Part shown: positions 2,894 through 11,603 of the stretch, one piece after another | Numbering within the stretch: position 1 is the first letter of the stretch | How the letters are laid out: the number at the start of each line of letters is the position of its first letter | Assembly (NCBI GenBank): GCA_902783305.1 | Contig: CACZQU010000350.1 | Coordinates: 1 to 11,603, forward strand | Source of the DNA: an uncultured Lachnospiraceae bacterium | GTDB taxonomy: Bacteria > Bacillota > Clostridia > Lachnospirales > Lachnospiraceae | Direction: 5' to 3' | DNA: 11,603 nucleotides | The notes under the pieces: generated by a model | What the model was told of the DNA's origin: nothing | Database searches by the model: none | The model's input: only the letters and a program-made list of their open reading frames with translations | Made by a program: the position numbers and the translations under genes

Positions 2894-4603
2894 TTATCTT
2901 CCGAACTGCACGTCGTTGTTGCCGGAATCGGTAGTCCACATCTCAAGCATGTTGATCGGGTCATTGAAGTCCGCAATCCAGCCGTTCCTTGCGATGTCAT
3001 AGTTACCGGCTTTCCTCTCATTGAGGAAGACATTCCACTCAGTAGTCTCCAGGGTCATGTCGATACCGATGGCCGCGAAATCCTGCTGAAGGGCTTCGCC
3101 GATGGCCACATGACCGGAGGTATCATTGGTCAGATAATTGAAGGAAATCGGAGTCTCCTCGGAAAGCTTGCCGTCCTCGTCAAACTCATATCCTGCCTCC
3201 TGGAGAAGCTCTATGGCCTGGTCAAGGTTGTCCTCATAGGCTTCATAGGTCGGATCGAAATATCCGCCGATCTCCTCATCATTATAGGTATAGGTGACCG
3301 GATAGGTATAGTCATCATCGTTGACGCGGAATTCTCCTCCGTTGCCGTCCGCCATACCCGCAGGAATGAAGGTAGACGCAGGCTGCTGGCCGGTCTGGCC
3401 GATGTTCTCGCAGATGTAATCGCGGTCAATCAGCAGGCTGAGAGCTTTCCTCATGGCTGCTGCCTGCTCCGGAGTCTTGCCCTCAAAGAGCGGACTGTTG
3501 ACATTGAAGCACACATAGTAGGTGCCCAGCTGATCCACGATATAGAATTCCGGATTATCCAGAAGGTTCTGGATTTCGTCGGTAGGAACCGTGTCAATGA
3601 AATCCAGGTCGCCGGCGTTATAAGCCGCAAAGATCGCGGTGTCGTCCGCGCTCAGCATGAACTCCAGCTTCTCGATTTTGACTTCGTCCGCGCGATACCA
3701 GTTCGGGTTCTTGACATAAACCATGCTCTCATTGTGCTTCCAGGAATCCAGGATATACGCACCGTTGGACACAAAGCCCGCCTCCAGAGCCCATGCTCCG
3801 GGATTGTCCTCATGGCCTTCCGCTCCCTCGACCGCTTCCTTTTTCACCGGATAATAGGTCGGGAACGCGCACAGATCCAGGAAATAAGCACAGGGAGCCG
3901 CCAGAGTCACGGTAAGGGTCTGGCCGTCTTCACTGACCTCGACGGCCAGGGTATCGTCGTCATTTCTGGCGATCGCGTCAAACATATAGAAATAATCCGC
4001 TCCCGTTTCCGCTGCCGCCGCCCGGTTCCAGGCATAGGCAAAATCATTGGCGTCCAGCTTGGTTCCGTCGCTCCACTTCAGATCCGGAAGCAGAGTGAAG
4101 GTGTAAGTGAGGCCGTCCTCACTGGATTCATAAGACTGTGCAAGGGCAGGAACCACATTTCCTTCCTCATCATAGGCAAACAGACCGGTGAAAGAATTCA
4201 CGACCAGGCAGGCTCCATCCACGGAAGAGTTGAGGGCCGGATCCAGCTTGTCCGGTTCACTGGCCAGATTCAGGCGCAGGGTATCGCTGTCCCCGTTGTC
4301 CGCGAACATAAAATACTTAAATCCATAGGCATTGCTATAGATCCCGCTCACGGTTTCTTTCTGCATATAGACGTCATTGTAAAAATAAATCGGGACAATC
4401 GCGCCGGTATCCATCAGAATGTCTTCCGCCTGGTGCATAAGACCCTCTCTGGCAGCAAAGTCCGTCTCTGTCTTGATCTGTCCGATCAGCGCATCGTACT
4501 CCTCCCAGTCCGGTGCTGCCTCAGAAGATTTCGCAAAAGCACCAGCCGCCGGAGCCATTACCATTGCTGCCGCAAGGACAGCCGCAAGAATCTGTTTCTT
4601 CAT
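2894..4603 (-). CDS. oppA: oligopeptide-binding protein OppA-like, apparently circularly permuted
   Basis: Extracytoplasmic peptide receptor (SBP family 5) of the adjacent transporter; 569 residues. Residues 1-24 are a Sec signal peptide (MKKQ, Ala-rich core, AGAFA cleavage site) with no lipobox Cys. Residues 31-101 (WEEYDALIGQIKTETD..., AEDILMDTGAIVPIYFYNDVY, IYSNAYGFKYFMF) match what is normally the C-terminal end of OppA/DppA proteins. The usual mature N-terminus follows at about 105 (DTLRLNLASEPDKLDPA), then LKWSDGTKLDANDFAYAWNR, the central domain and YDIARNGWIADFNDPINML. The protein stops at SGNNDVQFGR, just where the displaced tail would normally follow. Total length is normal, so the tail seems moved rather than lost or duplicated. 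AGGAGG lies 5 nt before the ATG. Family assignment is firm. The permutation rests on my knowledge of family order and was not computed here. Confidence 0.88.
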   Translation of the reverse strand: MKKQILAAVLAAAMVMAPAAGAFAKSSEAAPDWEEYDALIGQIKTETDFAAREGLMHQAEDILMDTGAIVPIYFYNDVYMQKETVSGIYSNAYGFKYFMFADNGDSDTLRLNLASEPDKLDPALNSSVDGACLVVNSFTGLFAYDEEGNVVPALAQSYESSEDGLTYTFTLLPDLKWSDGTKLDANDFAYAWNRAAAAETGADYFYMFDAIARNDDDTLAVEVSEDGQTLTVTLAAPCAYFLDLCAFPTYYPVKKEAVEGAEGHEDNPGAWALEAGFVSNGAYILDSWKHNESMVYVKNPNWYRADEVKIEKLEFMLSADDTAIFAAYNAGDLDFIDTVPTDEIQNLLDNPEFYIVDQLGTYYVCFNVNSPLFEGKTPEQAAAMRKALSLLIDRDYICENIGQTGQQPASTFIPAGMADGNGGEFRVNDDDYTYPVTYTYNDEEIGGYFDPTYEAYEDNLDQAIELLQEAGYEFDEDGKLSEETPISFNYLTNDTSGHVAIGEALQQDFAAIGIDMTLETTEWNVFLNERKAGNYDIARNGWIADFNDPINMLEMWTTDSGNNDVQFGR

Positions 4604-4682
4604 CTTTTCCTCCTTTTGTCAAGTCATTTCCGAAACAGAGGTTGACAGTTACATATATTGTGCATGAATGCAGTCTTCCGGA

Positions 4683-4764: not shown

Positions 4765-5730
4765 CTAACGGATGAGATTCCAGCAGGCAACCTGGTGTCC
4801 GCCTCCCACGTCCTTCAGGGAAGGGCATTCCATCCGGCACTTCTCAGTGGCATACCTGCAGCGGGTGCGGAAAGCACATCCGTCGGGCATATGAAGCGGA
4901 CTGGGAACATCCCCCTCGAGGACGATTCTCTGGCGCTGCCGGGTAATCCTGGGATCCGGGATGGGCACAGCGGAGAGCAGTGAAACCGTATAAGGATGCA
5001 TCGCATGCTCATATACCTCGTCCGCGTCTCCGATCTCCACCACTCTCCCCAGATACATCACGGCGATCCTGTCCGAGATATGACGGACGATCAGCAGATC
5101 ATGGGCAATAAATAAGTATGCCACCCCCAGCTGATCCTGCAGATCCTCAAACATATTGACGACCTGTGCCTGGATGGATACATCCAGCGCGCTGACCGGC
5201 TCATCGCAGACAATGAACTTCGGATCCACGGCCAGGGCTCTGGCAATCCCGATCCTCTGACGCTGTCCTCCGGAGAATTCGTGAGCATAACGCGTAGCAT
5301 GCTCCGCGTTCAGTCCCACGGTTTCCATCAGAGCGAGAATCTTTTCCCTTCTCTCCGCCTTGTTCCGGTACAGCCTGTGCACATCCATCGGCTCCCCGAT
5401 GATATCCTCCACTGTCATTCTGGGATCCAGGGAAGAATAAGGATCCTGAAAGACCATCTGCATCTTTTTGCGGAGCTCCCGGATATTCTTTTCCGTGACC
5501 TCCTCTCCCTCAAAGAACACCTGGCCCCCGGTCGGCTTGTACAGATACAGCAGCGTCCTGCCGACCGTGGTCTTCCCGCAGCCGGATTCTCCTACCAGGC
5601 CAAGGGTCTCTCCCGGATGGATCTGGAATGACACTCCGTCCACGGCTTTGAGCCATGTGGTTTTTCTCCAGCCGGTCCTGACGGGAAAATACTGCTTAAG
5701 GTCCCTGACTTCAATCAGATTTTCGCTCAA
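4765..5730 (-). CDS. oppF: oligopeptide ABC transporter ATP-binding protein OppF
   Basis: One of the two ATPases that power peptide import; 321 residues, normal for OppF. Motifs: Walker A GESGCGKT (47-54), Q-loop Q95 in VFQDPYSSLDP, signature FSGGQRQR (152-159), Walker B FIVCDEP with catalytic E177, and H-loop H210 in AHDLLIV. The C-terminal oligopeptide/HPY extension holds C285, C291, C298 and C317. The start is TTG at 5730. It overlaps the oppD stop by 4 nt (TTGA) and has AGGAGGTG ending 7 nt upstream, so translation is probably coupled to OppD, its expected heterodimer partner. No nearby in-frame ATG competes for the start. Confidence 0.93.
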   Translation of the reverse strand: MSENLIEVRDLKQYFPVRTGWRKTTWLKAVDGVSFQIHPGETLGLVGESGCGKTTVGRTLLYLYKPTGGQVFFEGEEVTEKNIRELRKKMQMVFQDPYSSLDPRMTVEDIIGEPMDVHRLYRNKAERREKILALMETVGLNAEHATRYAHEFSGGQRQRIGIARALAVDPKFIVCDEPVSALDVSIQAQVVNMFEDLQDQLGVAYLFIAHDLLIVRHISDRIAVMYLGRVVEIGDADEVYEHAMHPYTVSLLSAVPIPDPRITRQRQRIVLEGDVPSPLHMPDGCAFRTRCRYATEKCRMECPSLKDVGGGHQVACWNLIR

Positions 5731-6746
5731 TGCTCCTCACCTCCTGCCTGTACAGCCATCTGTTCCTTCACATTCATCCAGCAGGCGGCCCGATGAGTCG
5801 GTGTAAGCATGATCTCGGAGGGCTTTTCCTCCAGACAGATTTTCATCGCGTTGTCACACCGGCTGCAGAAAGCGCAGCCATCAGGCATATTCAGCAGGTT
5901 GATGGGACTGCCGGAAATCGGGATAAGCCTTTCCTTGCTCCGGTTTACATTCGGAATCGAGCGCAGAAGACCTTTGGTGTATTCGTGTCTCGGATCATAG
6001 AAAATGTCTTCGGCCGTTCCTCTCTCGCAGATGCTCCCTCCGTACATGACGATGATTTTATCACACATATCGGCAATGACTCCCAGATCATGGGTCACCA
6101 TGATGATGGCCATCCCCAGCTTTTTCTGCAGCTCCTGCATCAGCTCCAGAATCTGCGCCTGAATGGTCACGTCCAGGGCTGTGGTCGGCTCATCCGCGAT
6201 CAGGATATCCGGTTCGCAGGCCAGCGCCATGGCAATCATGACTCTCTGGCGCATTCCTCCGGACAGCTCATACGGGTACTGACGGATCCGTCTGGCCGGT
6301 TCATTGACACCAACCAGCTCCAGCATTTCGATCGCGCGGCTCCTCGCCTCCTTGCGGGATTTATCCGTGTGCAGGCGGATAGCCTCCATCAGCTGGCTTC
6401 CCACGGTAAAAACCGGATTCAGACTGGTCATCGGATCCTGGAAGATAATACTGCACCGTTTTCCGCGAAACGCCTGCAGCTGTTTCGGGCTCCACCTGGA
6501 CATGTCTTCTCCCTTGAAGAGAATACTGCCCTTTACGATCCGTCCGGTATCCGCCAGAATCTGCATGACCGAATAAGCGGTCACGCTCTTTCCCGAGCCG
6601 GATTCCCCGACGATTCCCATGATCTCTCCGGGTCTGAGATTGAAGGTCACTCCGTTGACGGCCTTCACTTCACCGGAATCTGTAAAAAAGGAGGTATGCA
6701 GGTCATTGACCTCCAGAACATATTCATAATCTAAACTGGCAGCCAT
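5727..6746 (-). CDS. oppD: oligopeptide ABC transporter ATP-binding protein OppD
   Basis: The second ATPase of the importer; 339 residues, typical length. Motifs: Walker A GESGSGKS (47-54), Q-loop Q103 in [11 protein letters not shown], signature LSGGMRQR (161-168), Walker [13 protein letters not shown] with catalytic E186, and H-loop H219 in THDLGVI. The C-terminal domain contains C291, C294, C297, C304 and C322. The C-x5-C-x6-C spacing (291, 297, 304) is the same as in OppF. The ATG at 6746 follows AGGAGGT by 7 nt. That SD is built from the last two Arg codons and the stop of oppC (AGG AGG TAA), so oppC and oppD are tightly coupled. Confidence 0.94.
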
Positions 6747-6751
6747 CTACT

Positions 6752-7846
6752 TTACCTCCTCAGCTTTGGATCAAATGCGTCGCGCAGACCATCTCCCAGC
6801 AGGTTGAAGGAAAGCACCAGAAGACAGATTACCAGGGCCGGGATGACAAGCTTGTGCGGGTAACTCTGCATACCCTCCCGTGCCGCGTTGGCCAGGGAGC
6901 CCAGAGACGGCATCGGCGACTGTACGCCCAGTCCCACAAAGCTCAGGAAGCTTTCCGTGAAAATTGCCGACGGAATCTGCAGCGCAGTAGAAATAATAAT
7001 GACGCTCAGGCAGTTGGGGATGATATGCTTGCGGATGATACGGGCAGGCTTCGCCCCGATTGCCCTTGCGGCCAGAATATATTCGTTTTCCTTGATGGAG
7101 AGAATCTGCCCGCGGATCAGACGGGCCATCCCGACCCAGTAAAGAAGGCCAAAGACGATAAACAGGGAAATCATGTTGACGCCGAGCTTTGCCAGGGCAG
7201 TGCCCTCGATCACCGGCGCCAGAGTCTGCTTCAGCACCACGGAAAGAAGAATCACCATCAGCATATCCGGCAGAGAATAGATGATATCCACGATCCGCAT
7301 CATGATCAGATCCACCCTTCCTCCCACGTAGCCACAGATGCTGCCGTACAGCATCCCGATGATCAGAACCAGAATAGCCGCGAAAAACCCTACGGCAAGA
7401 GATACCCTCGTCCCGTAAAGTACACGTACGAGGTAATCCCGGCATTGTTCATCGGTTCCCAGAATATGAGGAAAATATTTCTGCCCTTCCTCCATGCCCT
7501 TCAGCTCATTTTTGGACCAGGTAAAGGGAGCCAGATTTTTGGCAGTCTTGTCACGCCTGCCGTTGACGGAAATCATTTCCGAATATTTATAGGGAATCAC
7601 CATCGGTCCGGCCACGGACAATGCGACGATCAGCACCAGAACGATGATGCTGGATACAGCAAGGGGATTTTTCATCAGCTTGCGCATCCCGTCCCTGAAG
7701 AAAGTGGTGGACTCGCTCATCACCTCCTGCTGTGCTTTTTCCTCATCCGTCGCTTTTTCAAATCTGGAAAGATCCAGCTGCAGACTGAAGGGACTTTTGG
7801 TCAGCGTGCCCCTGTCTTTTGCGTTTTCTACATGCTCATCTGCCAT
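6752..7846 (-). CDS. oppC: oligopeptide ABC transporter permease OppC
   Basis: Membrane permease of the peptide importer, 364 residues, paired with OppB. Residues 1-60 are a polar, charged cytoplasmic N-terminus. A first membrane segment follows at about 61-84, then an extracytoplasmic loop (85-128) and the OppC hallmark HILGTDEQCRDYLVRVLYG (127-145). The remaining segments form the BPD_transp_1 core. The EAA coupling loop is EYILAARAIGAKPARII (255-271), followed by RKHIIPN; it contacts the ATPases. The ATG at 7846 has GGGAGG upstream and lies 14 nt after the oppB stop. The N-terminal extension is somewhat longer and more acidic than I would expect, but OppC proteins often have one. Confidence 0.93.
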   Translation of the reverse strand: MADEHVENAKDRGTLTKSPFSLQLDLSRFEKATDEEKAQQEVMSESTTFFRDGMRKLMKNPLAVSSIIVLVLIVALSVAGPMVIPYKYSEMISVNGRRDKTAKNLAPFTWSKNELKGMEEGQKYFPHILGTDEQCRDYLVRVLYGTRVSLAVGFFAAILVLIIGMLYGSICGYVGGRVDLIMMRIVDIIYSLPDMLMVILLSVVLKQTLAPVIEGTALAKLGVNMISLFIVFGLLYWVGMARLIRGQILSIKENEYILAARAIGAKPARIIRKHIIPNCLSVIIISTALQIPSAIFTESFLSFVGLGVQSPMPSLGSLANAAREGMQSYPHKLVIPALVICLLVLSFNLLGDGLRDAFDPKLRR

Positions 7847-7860
7847 TTTTCCGCCTCCCG

Positions 7861-8772
7861 TCAGTCAAAATTGATCCGCGGATCCACCAGCTTGTATACC
7901 AGATCGCTGAGCAGGTTCATGATCACCATCAGCGTCGCCAGGAAGATCGTGGTTGCCATGATCATCGGGTAATCCCGGGTAGTAATCCCGGTAACAAACT
8001 TGGATCCCAGTCCGCCGATCGTAAAGATATTCTCCACCACCAGAGAACCGGTCAGGATATAGGCCAGCATAGGACCGACATAGGTAATCACCGGAATCAG
8101 GGCATTTCGGAGAGCGTGCTTGAAGATCACCTTAAGCCGCGGCACTCCCTTCGCCTTCGCTGTGCGGATATAATCCTGTCCCAGCGCGTCAAGCATGCTG
8201 GTCTTGGTCAGCCTGGTAATATAGGCCATAGGGTACATCGCCAGAGCGACAACCGGAAGGACATAATTGGGATTTCCCGTAGAGAAGACGGGGAACCAGC
8301 CCAGTCTGATGCAGAAGACCAGAAGCAGCAATGTCGCCAGAACAAAGCTGGGAACAGCAGTCATCAGCGTTGAGAAAAATACAATGAGCCGGTCAGCCAG
8401 ACGGTTCCGGTTGAGAGCCGCAATGCTTCCCAGGATCACGCCCGCGATGACCGCAGCCAGGGCAGCCATTCCTCCAAGGCGCGCGGAAACCTTAAAGGAT
8501 TCGAAGACGGTCTGGGAAATGTCCCTGCCGGTTTTGAGGGACACCCCGAAGTCTCCGTGCAGAAGGCGCCCCAGATAGATGAAGAACTGCTGAAGAACCG
8601 GCTTGTCCAGGTTGAAGCGTTCCATCAGGACCTTCTCCACCTCCGGACTGAGGGCTTTCTCCCCGCTGAAGGGACCTCCCGGAATAGCATTCATGGCGAA
8701 AAAGGTTATGGCACTGATGATAAATACCGTAACCACTGCGAGGATAATTCTTTTTACCACATATTTTGCCAA
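7861..8772 (-). CDS. oppB: oligopeptide ABC transporter permease OppB
   Basis: Membrane permease, first gene of the opp cluster, about 303 residues from the chosen start. The N-terminal segment ends in AIPGGPF, the usual OppB/DppB signature. It is followed by FNLDKPVLQQFFIYL, the HGDFGVSL motif, the BPD_transp_1 membrane core and the EAA loop DYIRTAKAKGVPRLKVIFKH. The frame also offers a GTG at 8781. AGGAGA directly abuts that GTG with no spacer, whereas the TTG at 8772 has a normal 9-nt spacer. I therefore place the start at TTG, giving MAKYVVKRI, which looks like other OppB N-termini. Family assignment is secure; only the first three residues are uncertain. Confidence 0.92.
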   Translation of the reverse strand: MAKYVVKRIILAVVTVFIISAITFFAMNAIPGGPFSGEKALSPEVEKVLMERFNLDKPVLQQFFIYLGRLLHGDFGVSLKTGRDISQTVFESFKVSARLGGMAALAAVIAGVILGSIAALNRNRLADRLIVFFSTLMTAVPSFVLATLLLLVFCIRLGWFPVFSTGNPNYVLPVVALAMYPMAYITRLTKTSMLDALGQDYIRTAKAKGVPRLKVIFKHALRNALIPVITYVGPMLAYILTGSLVVENIFTIGGLGSKFVTGITTRDYPMIMATTIFLATLMVIMNLLSDLVYKLVDPRINFD

Positions 8773-8781
8773 TTTTTTCAC

Positions 8782-8864: not shown

Positions 8865-8894
8865 ATCCTATCACATTACCGCATCCTATTTCAA
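8865..8894 (-). promoter_or_regulatory. candidate promoter for the opp operon
   Basis: Minus-strand TTGAAA (8894-8889, five of six consensus) lies 18 nt before TAGGAT (8870-8865, four of six), which has an extended TGA immediately upstream. The -35 overlaps the last codons of the YfhO gene. Transcription would start near 8858, about 85 nt before the oppB start. No terminator is visible after the YfhO gene, so read-through from it is also possible. Confidence 0.35.
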
Positions 8895-11603
8895 TCCCTT
8901 ACCTCCGGAAATCCTTCCGGAATACAGCACAAAGAGCGCCAGCCCCAGAAGCGAAATCAGTACGGCAGGCAGCATAATCCGCTGGTGGTAATGAAAACAG
9001 ACCGTATGCTTCCCTTCGGGAATCATGACCCCGATCACTCCATCCCCGCCGATCGAAACCTTTTCGGCTTTTTCTCCGTCAAGGAGGATTTCCCAGCCCC
9101 GTACATAAGGAATCGAGGTGAACAGCAGGCTTTCCTTTTCCGCCTCTACGGTACCTTCGATCCGGGTATCTTCAAAGCTGGTGATCTGCCACCCCTGCCC
9201 GTTAAGAATGTCAAAGGCTTTCCGGAAGGAGGAATCTTCATAGGAGGCTGCATACAAAGATACGGTTCCGCTCTCCCGGTATGTTTTTTCAAAAGCACCT
9301 CTTTTCGTGAGCTTGAAATCCACGTAAATCTTCTCTCCGGCCGAAACCTGGCCCACATCGATCATGCTCCGCCCTGCGGAGAGCTCCCGGTCCTGGTTCA
9401 CCTTGCTGGTACGATAGACAAAACGCTTGGCGTTGGCTGCGTCGACATAGATATATAGGTACTGATCCTGATCAGAGGTATAGGTCACACTGACCGTCGG
9501 CTCTGCCAGAAGGTTCTCCGGGTGGTCCACTCTGTAATTGAAATGGCCTTTGGAATCCAGCGGGGTGACGGTAATATTCTGTGTGACCACGGTATCCGGT
9601 TCGAGCAGTGTGAACATCGGCTCTGTTACTCCCGCGGCTTTGCGGATGAAGTCATCCTGTACCGCAAAGGGCTGAGAGAACTCCATCTGCCAGTTCAGCA
9701 CCTCCGGATCCGTCAGAAAGCCCAGCGGCAGGGCAAAGTCATTCCGGTAAAGCCATACGGTTCCGAACTCCTCGAGGTATTCGTACTTTTGTGCCCGGGG
9801 ATGAGGCTCGTCCTTGTTCATGACATACCGGACATCAAAGAGAGCGTCAATGAGGGGGGTCGGGTCATAATACCGGAAGCTGTTGCCGGTGGCGGCTACC
9901 CCGAGATTCTGCATGAATCGGGAAATGCCTCCCGGCTCCAGAGAGGAAAACTGGGAAAACCCATTGTAATGGTAAAGAGAAGCGTCGTTTATGGTAGTAA
10001 ACCGGCGGAACTCTGCGCGGTAGAAGCCATCCGTCGCATTCCTGGGTGCCTCCTCCTTCGTCCCGCTCTCCCCGTTCTTTTCCTCAGCTGTGTTCTGTGT
10101 CCGGTTTTTCTCCTCCAGGCTTTCAATACAGGCAACCATTTCAGCCGCGTCATCCATGTATTTCACATATGCCTCCCGGCTGCCCGTATCCTCCAGGTTG
10201 GATACGGAGGTAAAGCTGCATTCTCCTACGACAAGGAGCAGCACAATGGGGATCAATATCCGGTGAAAGAAGCGTCCTCTCCGGCTCCCAAGCCAGAGAA
10301 TCGTCAGATACGCTGCCATCAGCAGCAGGTTTGCCACAATATCCGTATCCGAAAGCACCCGGTCAATGTCCTCCACACGGCCCACGACCCAGTATTGGGT
10401 TGCCAGAATTACGGCCGCATAGGCCGCGCAGGTGACGGGCGCCGCGAGGAACTTTGATTCAGGAAGATGCACAAACGCGCTGTAAGCCATGTACAGAAGG
10501 ATAAAGCTGTAGACAAAGGTATATCGGTGAGGAAGATTCGCGGGAAAATGCATACCGTGAATCAGGTAGTCCAGAGGCCGGATGCAGGCACACAGCAGCA
10601 TAAACACCAGCAAGGCCGTCATCCCTGCTTTTTCCTTGCGGTTGATCCTCCTGTTCGTATAGTACAGCGGCAGCAGAACAAGAGTCAGTACACCGCTGTA
10701 AATGTTCGGAAGGTCTTCGTTGCGGGCCAGCACCGCCGGCCTTGCCCCCAGAAAATGGTTGGGGATAATCTGCCAGACATTCGGATAGATTTCAAAAGCC
10801 GGGAAGCTGGTATCACTGACTGCCGTCGCCGACAGGGCGAGAGCTACCGGTGCAAGGATAAACATGGAAGTCAGGGCCGCCAGCACAGAGAGTACCGCGA
10901 ACCGAAGCACCCTTTTCCCGATCTGCCCAAGGTCCTTTTTCAGGGAATACCGGGAAATGACCAGAACCAGAAAATAAAGAGCAGTCAGCACACAGACCAG
11001 CACCGCCAGATAAAAATTCACGACCATGGTCAGAACCAGGGAGAAATAATACAGCTTCATCCGGCCGTCTTCCACGAGCCGTTCCGTCCCTCTGGCCACT
11101 AACGGGAAGAGAACCACCGTGTCCAGCCACATGATATTCCAGTAATAGCAGGTCAGAAAGGCGCAGAATGCGTAAAGCATGCCAAAAATCAGGATGGAGA
11201 GATCATTCCTCCGGAAATGGTCCTTGAGGTACCAGGTAAAAGAAGACGCGCTCAGACTGATCTTAAGCAGGATAAACAGAGCGATCATTTCCGGGAGGTT
11301 TTTCTCCGGAAAAAGAAACATCAGCAGATTGACCGGAGACGTCGTATAATATGCCATCTGGGAAACAAAATCCTTCCCAAGTCCTCCCTCCCAGCTGTAG
11401 AGAAGACTTTTCCCATTGAGAATCCGGCTGTGCAGCTCCTCGATATAAGGTGCGTACTGGTGATAAAGATCCACCTTCAGCACTGTCTCTCCCCCGAAGG
11501 GATATACCTTCTTGATGATATATGTGATCAGAAGGATGCACATGCTCAGCACAAAGGCCAGAACCACAAACCGGTTCCTGACCCACCAGCCTGATTCATG
11601 CTG
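8886..11603 (-). CDS. YfhO family membrane protein, 5' end outside window
   Basis: Large multi-pass membrane protein of the YfhO family (GT-C-like fold). In Bacillus and Listeria relatives it is linked to adding sugars to lipoteichoic acid from a lipid-linked donor. The frame stays open to the right edge (12 more codons before the GTG at 11567, including WWVRNRF), so the true start is probably outside. A GTG start at 11567 would leave no charged residues before the first membrane segment. Numbered from that GTG: first membrane segment about 2-18, VDLYHQYAPY (32-41), many further segments to about 455, the conserved-looking PHRYTFVYSFILL (346-358), a polar linker (483-512), an extracytoplasmic region with HYNGFSQFSSL, the late GWEILLDGEKAEKV motif and a final membrane segment (865-884). 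The family call is good. The sugar and acceptor cannot be told from sequence. Confidence 0.85.
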   Translation of the reverse strand, partial: QHESGWWVRNRFVVLAFVLSMCILLITYIIKKVYPFGGETVLKVDLYHQYAPYIEELHSRILNGKSLLYSWEGGLGKDFVSQMAYYTTSPVNLLMFLFPEKNLPEMIALFILLKISLSASSFTWYLKDHFRRNDLSILIFGMLYAFCAFLTCYYWNIMWLDTVVLFPLVARGTERLVEDGRMKLYYFSLVLTMVVNFYLAVLVCVLTALYFLVLVISRYSLKKDLGQIGKRVLRFAVLSVLAALTSMFILAPVALALSATAVSDTSFPAFEIYPNVWQIIPNHFLGARPAVLARNEDLPNIYSGVLTLVLLPLYYTNRRINRKEKAGMTALLVFMLLCACIRPLDYLIHGMHFPANLPHRYTFVYSFILLYMAYSAFVHLPESKFLAAPVTCAAYAAVILATQYWVVGRVEDIDRVLSDTDIVANLLLMAAYLTILWLGSRRGRFFHRILIPIVLLLVVGECSFTSVSNLEDTGSREAYVKYMDDAAEMVACIESLEEKNRTQNTAEEKNGESGTKEEAPRNATDGFYRAEFRRFTTINDASLYHYNGFSQFSSLEPGGISRFMQNLGVAATGNSFRYYDPTPLIDALFDVRYVMNKDEPHPRAQKYEYLEEFGTVWLYRNDFALPLGFLTDPEVLNWQMEFSQPFAVQDDFIRKAAGVTEPMFTLLEPDTVVTQNITVTPLDSKGHFNYRVDHPENLLAEPTVSVTYTSDQDQYLYIYVDAANAKRFVYRTSKVNQDRELSAGRSMIDVGQVSAGEKIYVDFKLTKRGAFEKTYRESGTVSLYAASYEDSSFRKAFDILNGQGWQITSFEDTRIEGTVEAEKESLLFTSIPYVRGWEILLDGEKAEKVSIGGDGVIGVMIPEGKHTVCFHYHQRIMLPAVLISLLGLALFVLYSGRISGGKGLK

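Follow-up and report, generated by a model that had tools for sequence, protein, structure and literature searches.

The window analysed here is a stretch of 11,603 nucleotides from an uncultured Lachnospiraceae bacterium, and its subject is oppA (2894..4603, minus strand), a gene for a solute-binding protein (SBP) of family 5. Sequence, conservation, a fold model and the operon together support a circular permutation of this protein that keeps the usual fold. The open reading frame (ORF) starts with ATG and runs through 569 codons to its stop without interruption, and a likely ribosome-binding site read directly from the sequence, AGGAGG (4609..4614, minus strand), lies five bases upstream of the ATG, which bears out the view of an intact gene taken in a preliminary description of the window. 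On the same strand, the gene is accompanied by the permease genes oppB (7861..8781; BPD_transp_1 and its N-terminal model) and oppC (6752..7846; BPD_transp_1 and OppC_N) and by the ATPase genes oppD (5727..6746) and oppF (4765..5730), both with ABC_tran and oligo_HPY, the company that marks the SBP of an Opp importer. Pfam assigns SBP_bac_5 to residues 149-563 (E 5.4e-81, 273 bits against a curated cut-off of 32.4) and no other family at E 0.001; the match appears as one ordinary stretch in which the permutation is invisible.

Chain order and predicted fold

The block limits were set by a profile built from ordinary-order relatives. An export signal occupies residues 1-24 (4532..4603; all blocks on the minus strand), as judged from the translation, with AFA/K as the likely cleavage site by eye. 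Residues 33-102 (4298..4507) correspond to the last part of the ordinary OppA chain (profile columns 471-540), residues 103-104 (4292..4297) bridge the former C- and N-termini, and residues 105-567 (2903..4291) correspond to the ordinary protein from its N-terminus onward (columns 35-469). The full family length is present exactly once, and only the two linker residues separate the old ends, in keeping with the earlier claim that total length is unchanged.

Comparison with solved structures by phmmer gives three blocks in permuted order. Residues 451-519 of Bacillus subtilis DppE (8ay0, 521 aa) match window residues 34-102 (i-Evalue 2.6e-12), while its residues 22-342 match 107-433 and its residues 367-444 match 485-563; likewise, residues 455-520 of B. 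subtilis OppA (8are, 525 aa) match the window tail (i-Evalue 4.2e-7). The tail falls at the same C-terminal place in Escherichia coli MppA and Salmonella OppA, where its match, taken by itself, falls short of significance (i-Evalues 0.49-0.5 and 22). The preliminary description had expected residues 25-104 to match the C-terminal ends of ordinary OppA proteins and those from 105 onward to match what precedes them. Both expectations hold, with the blocks refined to 33-102 and 105-567 by the profile, and an alignment of residues 25-104 to the OppA N-terminus, which would have spoken for the ordinary order, was looked for and did not occur. The protein does not show the ordinary arrangement of a domain I strand first and the tail last, and on the evidence of its sequence it is a permuted variant of SBP family 5, not a canonical member.

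AlphaFold, given a 131-sequence alignment, predicts an ordinary two-lobed OppA fold, as in cluster C (predicted local distance difference test score, pLDDT, 93; predicted template modelling score, pTM, 0.89), superseding a poor earlier run on 26 sequences (pLDDT 65.3, pTM 0.52). The model agrees with the standard fold that the preliminary description had anticipated, and the window protein most likely adopts a normal two-lobed SBP fold. W542 to D545 (2966..2977, minus strand) align with W416 and D419 of Salmonella OppA, the latter of which we take to bind the peptide amino group, and the residues aligned with these two are invariant in alignments A1 (26 rows) and A4 (131 rows). Joining the old termini would cost little, because the termini adjoin each other in other oligopeptide-binding proteins, where PMC10924461 places them close together beside the domain I strands; by analogy, this position fits the earlier argument that neighbouring termini make the permutation tolerable.

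Distribution of the permuted order and its break classes

A database protein search gave 7968 hits, and all of the best 120, which were listed and classified, carry the window's permutation; 119 were labelled permuted, and P0089, labelled TANDEM through an extra 17-bit match of its signal peptide, is counted with them. All 80 genome loci returned are permuted as in the window, and since they were picked by similarity to permuted proteins they attest to the reality and spread of the order but say nothing of its frequency. They include the isolates Porcincola intestinalis (L101) and Lachnospiraceae bacterium COE1 (L046) as well as metagenome-assembled genomes named Blautia, Acetatifactor, Eisenbergiella, Butyrivibrio and Christensenellaceae. 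The recognised genes read exactly oppB-C-D-F-A in 57 of the 80 loci, all four transporter genes are present in 71 and at least one in 79, and identity inside this class, here BP1, is 61-100% as listed and 59-85% by best segment. In a search of relatives the window's break occurs in 5 of 41 genomes, its own included (G000, G002, G011, G014 and G015), all five being of the window's genus, and G037 has another break. The permutation of the window's class is old and widespread.

Some members of the class show further peculiarities. Locus L114 (5929-9602) holds two tandem permuted oppA genes of BP1 behind opp genes, one of them more divergent. At L009 (1-1500; G002:C44) the permuted OppA lies inside a 1263-aa open frame with at least ~480 Glu/Ala-rich repeat residues before the tail, and P0028, P0036, P0042, P0058 and P0065 contain shorter stretches rich in Glu/Ala or Glu/Thr.

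The nearest ordinary-order relatives found come from the genus of genome G350, where 12 of 29 genomes, G350 included, encode a protein at 76-100% identity to that of G350 and another seven a protein at 50-52%, all in ordinary order. As in the window, the gene of this group (L118/L148/L208) ends oppBCDF and so shares the slot of the window's oppA; OppB, OppC, OppD and OppF of G350 are 67-76% identical to the window's, and after rotation the SBP shares 65% identity with the window protein and as much as 67.7% with BP1. It differs from the window protein in its signal-core-tail order and in having a lipobox.

Two genomes fetched for odd-looking matches revealed SBP5 proteins permuted at other places. 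A junction profile (A2, 13 rows), which detects any permutation fusing the old ends, gave stop-free full-span matches in at least 10 of 391 class-drawn genomes and at least 10 of 398 phylum-drawn genomes, at least 19 distinct genomes with G000 in both samples; no more than six candidates were scored per genome, so these counts are lower bounds. Any match at E 1e-30, ordinary order included, was found in 145 of the 391 and 185 of the 398. One BP2-like junction match (G788:C1:904231-905151; L204) contains a single internal TGA, from either a broken gene or a recoded stop, and was left uncounted.

Within the Bacillota genomes sampled, three break classes are distinguished against the ordinary-order profile, at columns ~470 (BP1, the window's), ~384 (BP2) and ~300 (BP3). 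The 212 BP1 proteins start at columns 466-473 and end at 466-474 with linkers of 2-4 residues; among 48 BP2 proteins the start lies at columns 376-386 in 46 and the end at 381-389 in 47, with linkers of 3-9 residues; and 59 BP3 proteins start at 298-305 and end at 296-302 with linkers of 1-8 residues. BP3 includes isolates, its members counting Helicovermis profundi (longest contig 3.12 Mb), Fusibacter bizertensis (4.48 Mb) and Clostridium grantii. The best 120 proteins listed for a BP3 query comprise 52 of BP3 and 68 of ordinary order, and those listed for a BP2 query 35 of BP2 and 85 ordinary. In the 11 loci retrieved for their gene context, all 12 BP2 or BP3 genes adjoin opp transporter genes, and these stretches yielded no ordinary SBP5 ORF of at least 350 aa. 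The SBP and transporter genes of L231 are divergently oriented, and in L235 the SBP gene lies on the opposite strand ~2 kb away. L145 (G037:C13:53500-65000) contains two consecutive opp sets, both with a BP3-permuted SBP gene at their head, the latter set running off the fetched stretch.

Alignment and end sequences place the equivalents of the breaks in Salmonella OppA at ~279-285 (BP3), ~354-357 (BP2) and ~442-445 (BP1). Because these fall within lobe 2, whose limits in that protein we take to be 271-486, the new N-terminus lies in lobe 2, not lobe 1, in all three classes, and this location of the export signal and of any lipid tether may matter. For YejA, PMC10924461 gives lobe 2 as 287-539 of 585.

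Number of order changes

FastTree, run on 236 sequences (80% redundancy cut, 491 columns, break columns kept), gives 13 order changes, and IQ-TREE (posterior mean site frequency model, quick search) likewise gives 13 on 107 rows with 16-21 columns removed around each break. All tree searches were quick, so single supports are not to be trusted far; approximately unbiased (AU) tests were run unrooted and with break columns removed. On 105 rows, with L021 (long branch) and L118 (a duplicate of L208) dropped, these tests reject BP3 as one clade (p 1.2e-5, 494 log-likelihood units worse) as well as BP2 as one clade (p 2.1e-6, 273 units worse). BP1 as one clade is not rejected (p 0.615; 65 rows, 33 of BP1, with the long rows L227, L133 and L129 dropped), and the likelihood is 6.65 higher when it is held together. 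The 18 main BP2 proteins are rejected as one clade (p 2.5e-4, 56 rows) with ordinary-order proteins lying inside, and one extra switch of order is needed within this 384-break clade, for which gain and return are alike possible. L179, a BP3 protein with 72% identity to one of ordinary order, falls apart from the main group of that class (p 1.5e-44, 34 rows), to which P0237 (C. grantii) may or may not belong (p 0.0525). Because BP2 and BP3 are each rejected as a single clade and BP1 is not, the AU tests put the minimum number of order changes in SBP family 5 at 1+2+2 = five. Five separate permutations are the simplest reading, although the unrooted tests would also count a gain and a return as two, and the window's class most likely arose once.

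A single ancient permuted SBP behind all permuted proteins, whose ordinary-order relatives would then represent many returns, could draw on the old-C to old-N junction common to all classes, on the ordinary-order proteins inside the 384-break clade, which imply at least one return or a second origin there, and on the inability of unrooted tests to separate gain from loss. However, separate ordinary-order relatives are known for each class (rotated identity up to 67.7, 61.0 and 73.6% for BP1, BP2 and BP3), the permuted groups in the 107-row tree are scattered among 66 ordinary-order rows with at least 13 changes, so that returns would far outnumber gains, and the solved family-5 structures matched all show ordinary order. 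We regard such a single origin as very improbable.

Origin, function and known systems

Taken as a whole, the data are very probably best explained by a permuted peptide-binding protein of an oligopeptide ATP-binding cassette importer, with a normal fold and from a family permuted on separate occasions. Some 70 residues from the end of an ordinary OppA now follow the export signal, two residues join the old termini, and the new ones lie in lobe 2, at profile column ~470. The window's class most likely formed without relocation, inside an oppBCDF-oppA operon, through an in-frame tandem duplication that was then trimmed, and the same family would have been permuted separately at columns ~384 and ~300 in other Bacillota. 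Duplication with trimming is the usual proposed route to circular permutation, and duplication of oppA followed by loss of its flanks is plausible here; tandem SBP5 genes do exist (L114). The window protein would close on peptide and hand it to OppBC, with transport driven by OppDF. We infer the directions of the order changes, the route by duplication and the import of peptides. A broader proposal, that Bacillota OppA-type SBPs permute repeatedly and so move the tether to lobe 2, that the change is kept since permease docking or leaving is altered, and that some lineages returned, is tentative and rather doubtful.

Several observations weigh against a permuted, working OppA of single origin. 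A two-unit fused ORF or duplication intermediate was sought among the scored sequences and none was seen. FastTree nests the ordinary-order proteins of the G350 genus inside BP1 (supports 0.85-0.88), and L220 joins the permuted L008 in the 107-row tree (Shimodaira-Hasegawa-like approximate likelihood ratio support 97). The AU test with 33 BP1 rows lends no support to such nesting, and in the 65-row analysis BP1 and the L208 group form one side of a branch (support 35); the G350 group may be the exact sister of BP1. A return of the G350 protein to ordinary order, hinted at by FastTree and by one grouping in the 107-row tree and not borne out by the AU test (p 0.615), is not claimed. The window protein also lacks the lipobox cysteine that follows the signal peptide of Gram-positive lipoprotein SBPs, which is unusual for a Gram-positive SBP, and has no cysteine in residues 1-60. 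By a simple motif, the lipobox is found in 52 of the best 120 BP1 proteins (absent from 68), 26 of 35 of BP2, 50 of 52 of BP3 and 145 of 153 ordinary proteins listed.

The frequent absence of the lipobox, together with other SBP5 genes in the window's genome (contigs C228, C404 and C387), would suit a relic, in which the permuted gene, expressed or not, no longer works as an SBP and another SBP serves the importer. Such decay is at odds with the open frame, the 61-100% identity within the class over 80 loci, the invariant aligned binding residues, the sharp conserved termini and the persistent place behind oppF, and we consider it very unlikely. An artefact of assembly or binning, through which a tandem oppA pair was collapsed and its tail placed before its core, could be suspected in a fragmented assembly (614 contigs, 82% complete). 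Yet the same junction occurs in the best 120 of 7968 database matches, in 80 genome loci and in the isolate records of P. intestinalis and Lachnospiraceae COE1; because it occurs in isolates, this explanation is refuted and retains next to no probability. The comparison with homologues in related genomes, suggested in the preliminary description, thus found the same permuted order, and an assembly error at ~4292 is untenable.

The permuted OppA shares with ordinary OppA, DppE and MppA (cluster C, PF00496; 8are, 8ay0, 3o9p, 1ola/1b05) its sequence family, a predicted two-lobed fold, the Trp and Asp of the peptide site and the opp operon, and differs in reading tail-core where theirs read core-tail and in an N-terminus in lobe 2. 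Natural permutation of SBPs is already known from cluster B. According to PMC4990184, TpMglB-2 (Tp0684) is a naturally circularly permuted cluster B SBP, for which the name 'Cluster Bc' was proposed; it keeps the two-lobed fold, was shown by experiment to bind glucose, and belongs to a family distributed among treponemes and Gram-positives. In TpMglB-2 the N-lobe has given up its first three strands to the C-terminus, which required crossing the hinge a fourth time, whereas the window protein belongs to cluster C, has its C-terminal tail moved to the front and comes from a family with three break classes. It does not show the cluster B, or type I periplasmic-binding, fold, SBP_bac_5 being its only Pfam family. 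No permuted OppA or other cluster C protein was found in literature searches covering open-licence papers.

One family of ~500 residues permuted at three positions, with ordinary-order relatives at up to ~74% rotated identity and, for BP1, one that even shares the operon slot, is useful material for studying the origin of natural circular permutations and their possible neutrality. The effect of the place of the tether on an SBP becomes testable. For annotation, domain tables hide the event behind a single Pfam stretch, and alignments made in chain order mishandle such proteins.

The rest of the window, also on the minus strand, holds a YfhO gene (8886-11567), a HerA-type gene (1143-2747) and an open-ended frame (3-977) that contains hydrophobic stretches, matches no Pfam family at 0.001 and runs off the contig.
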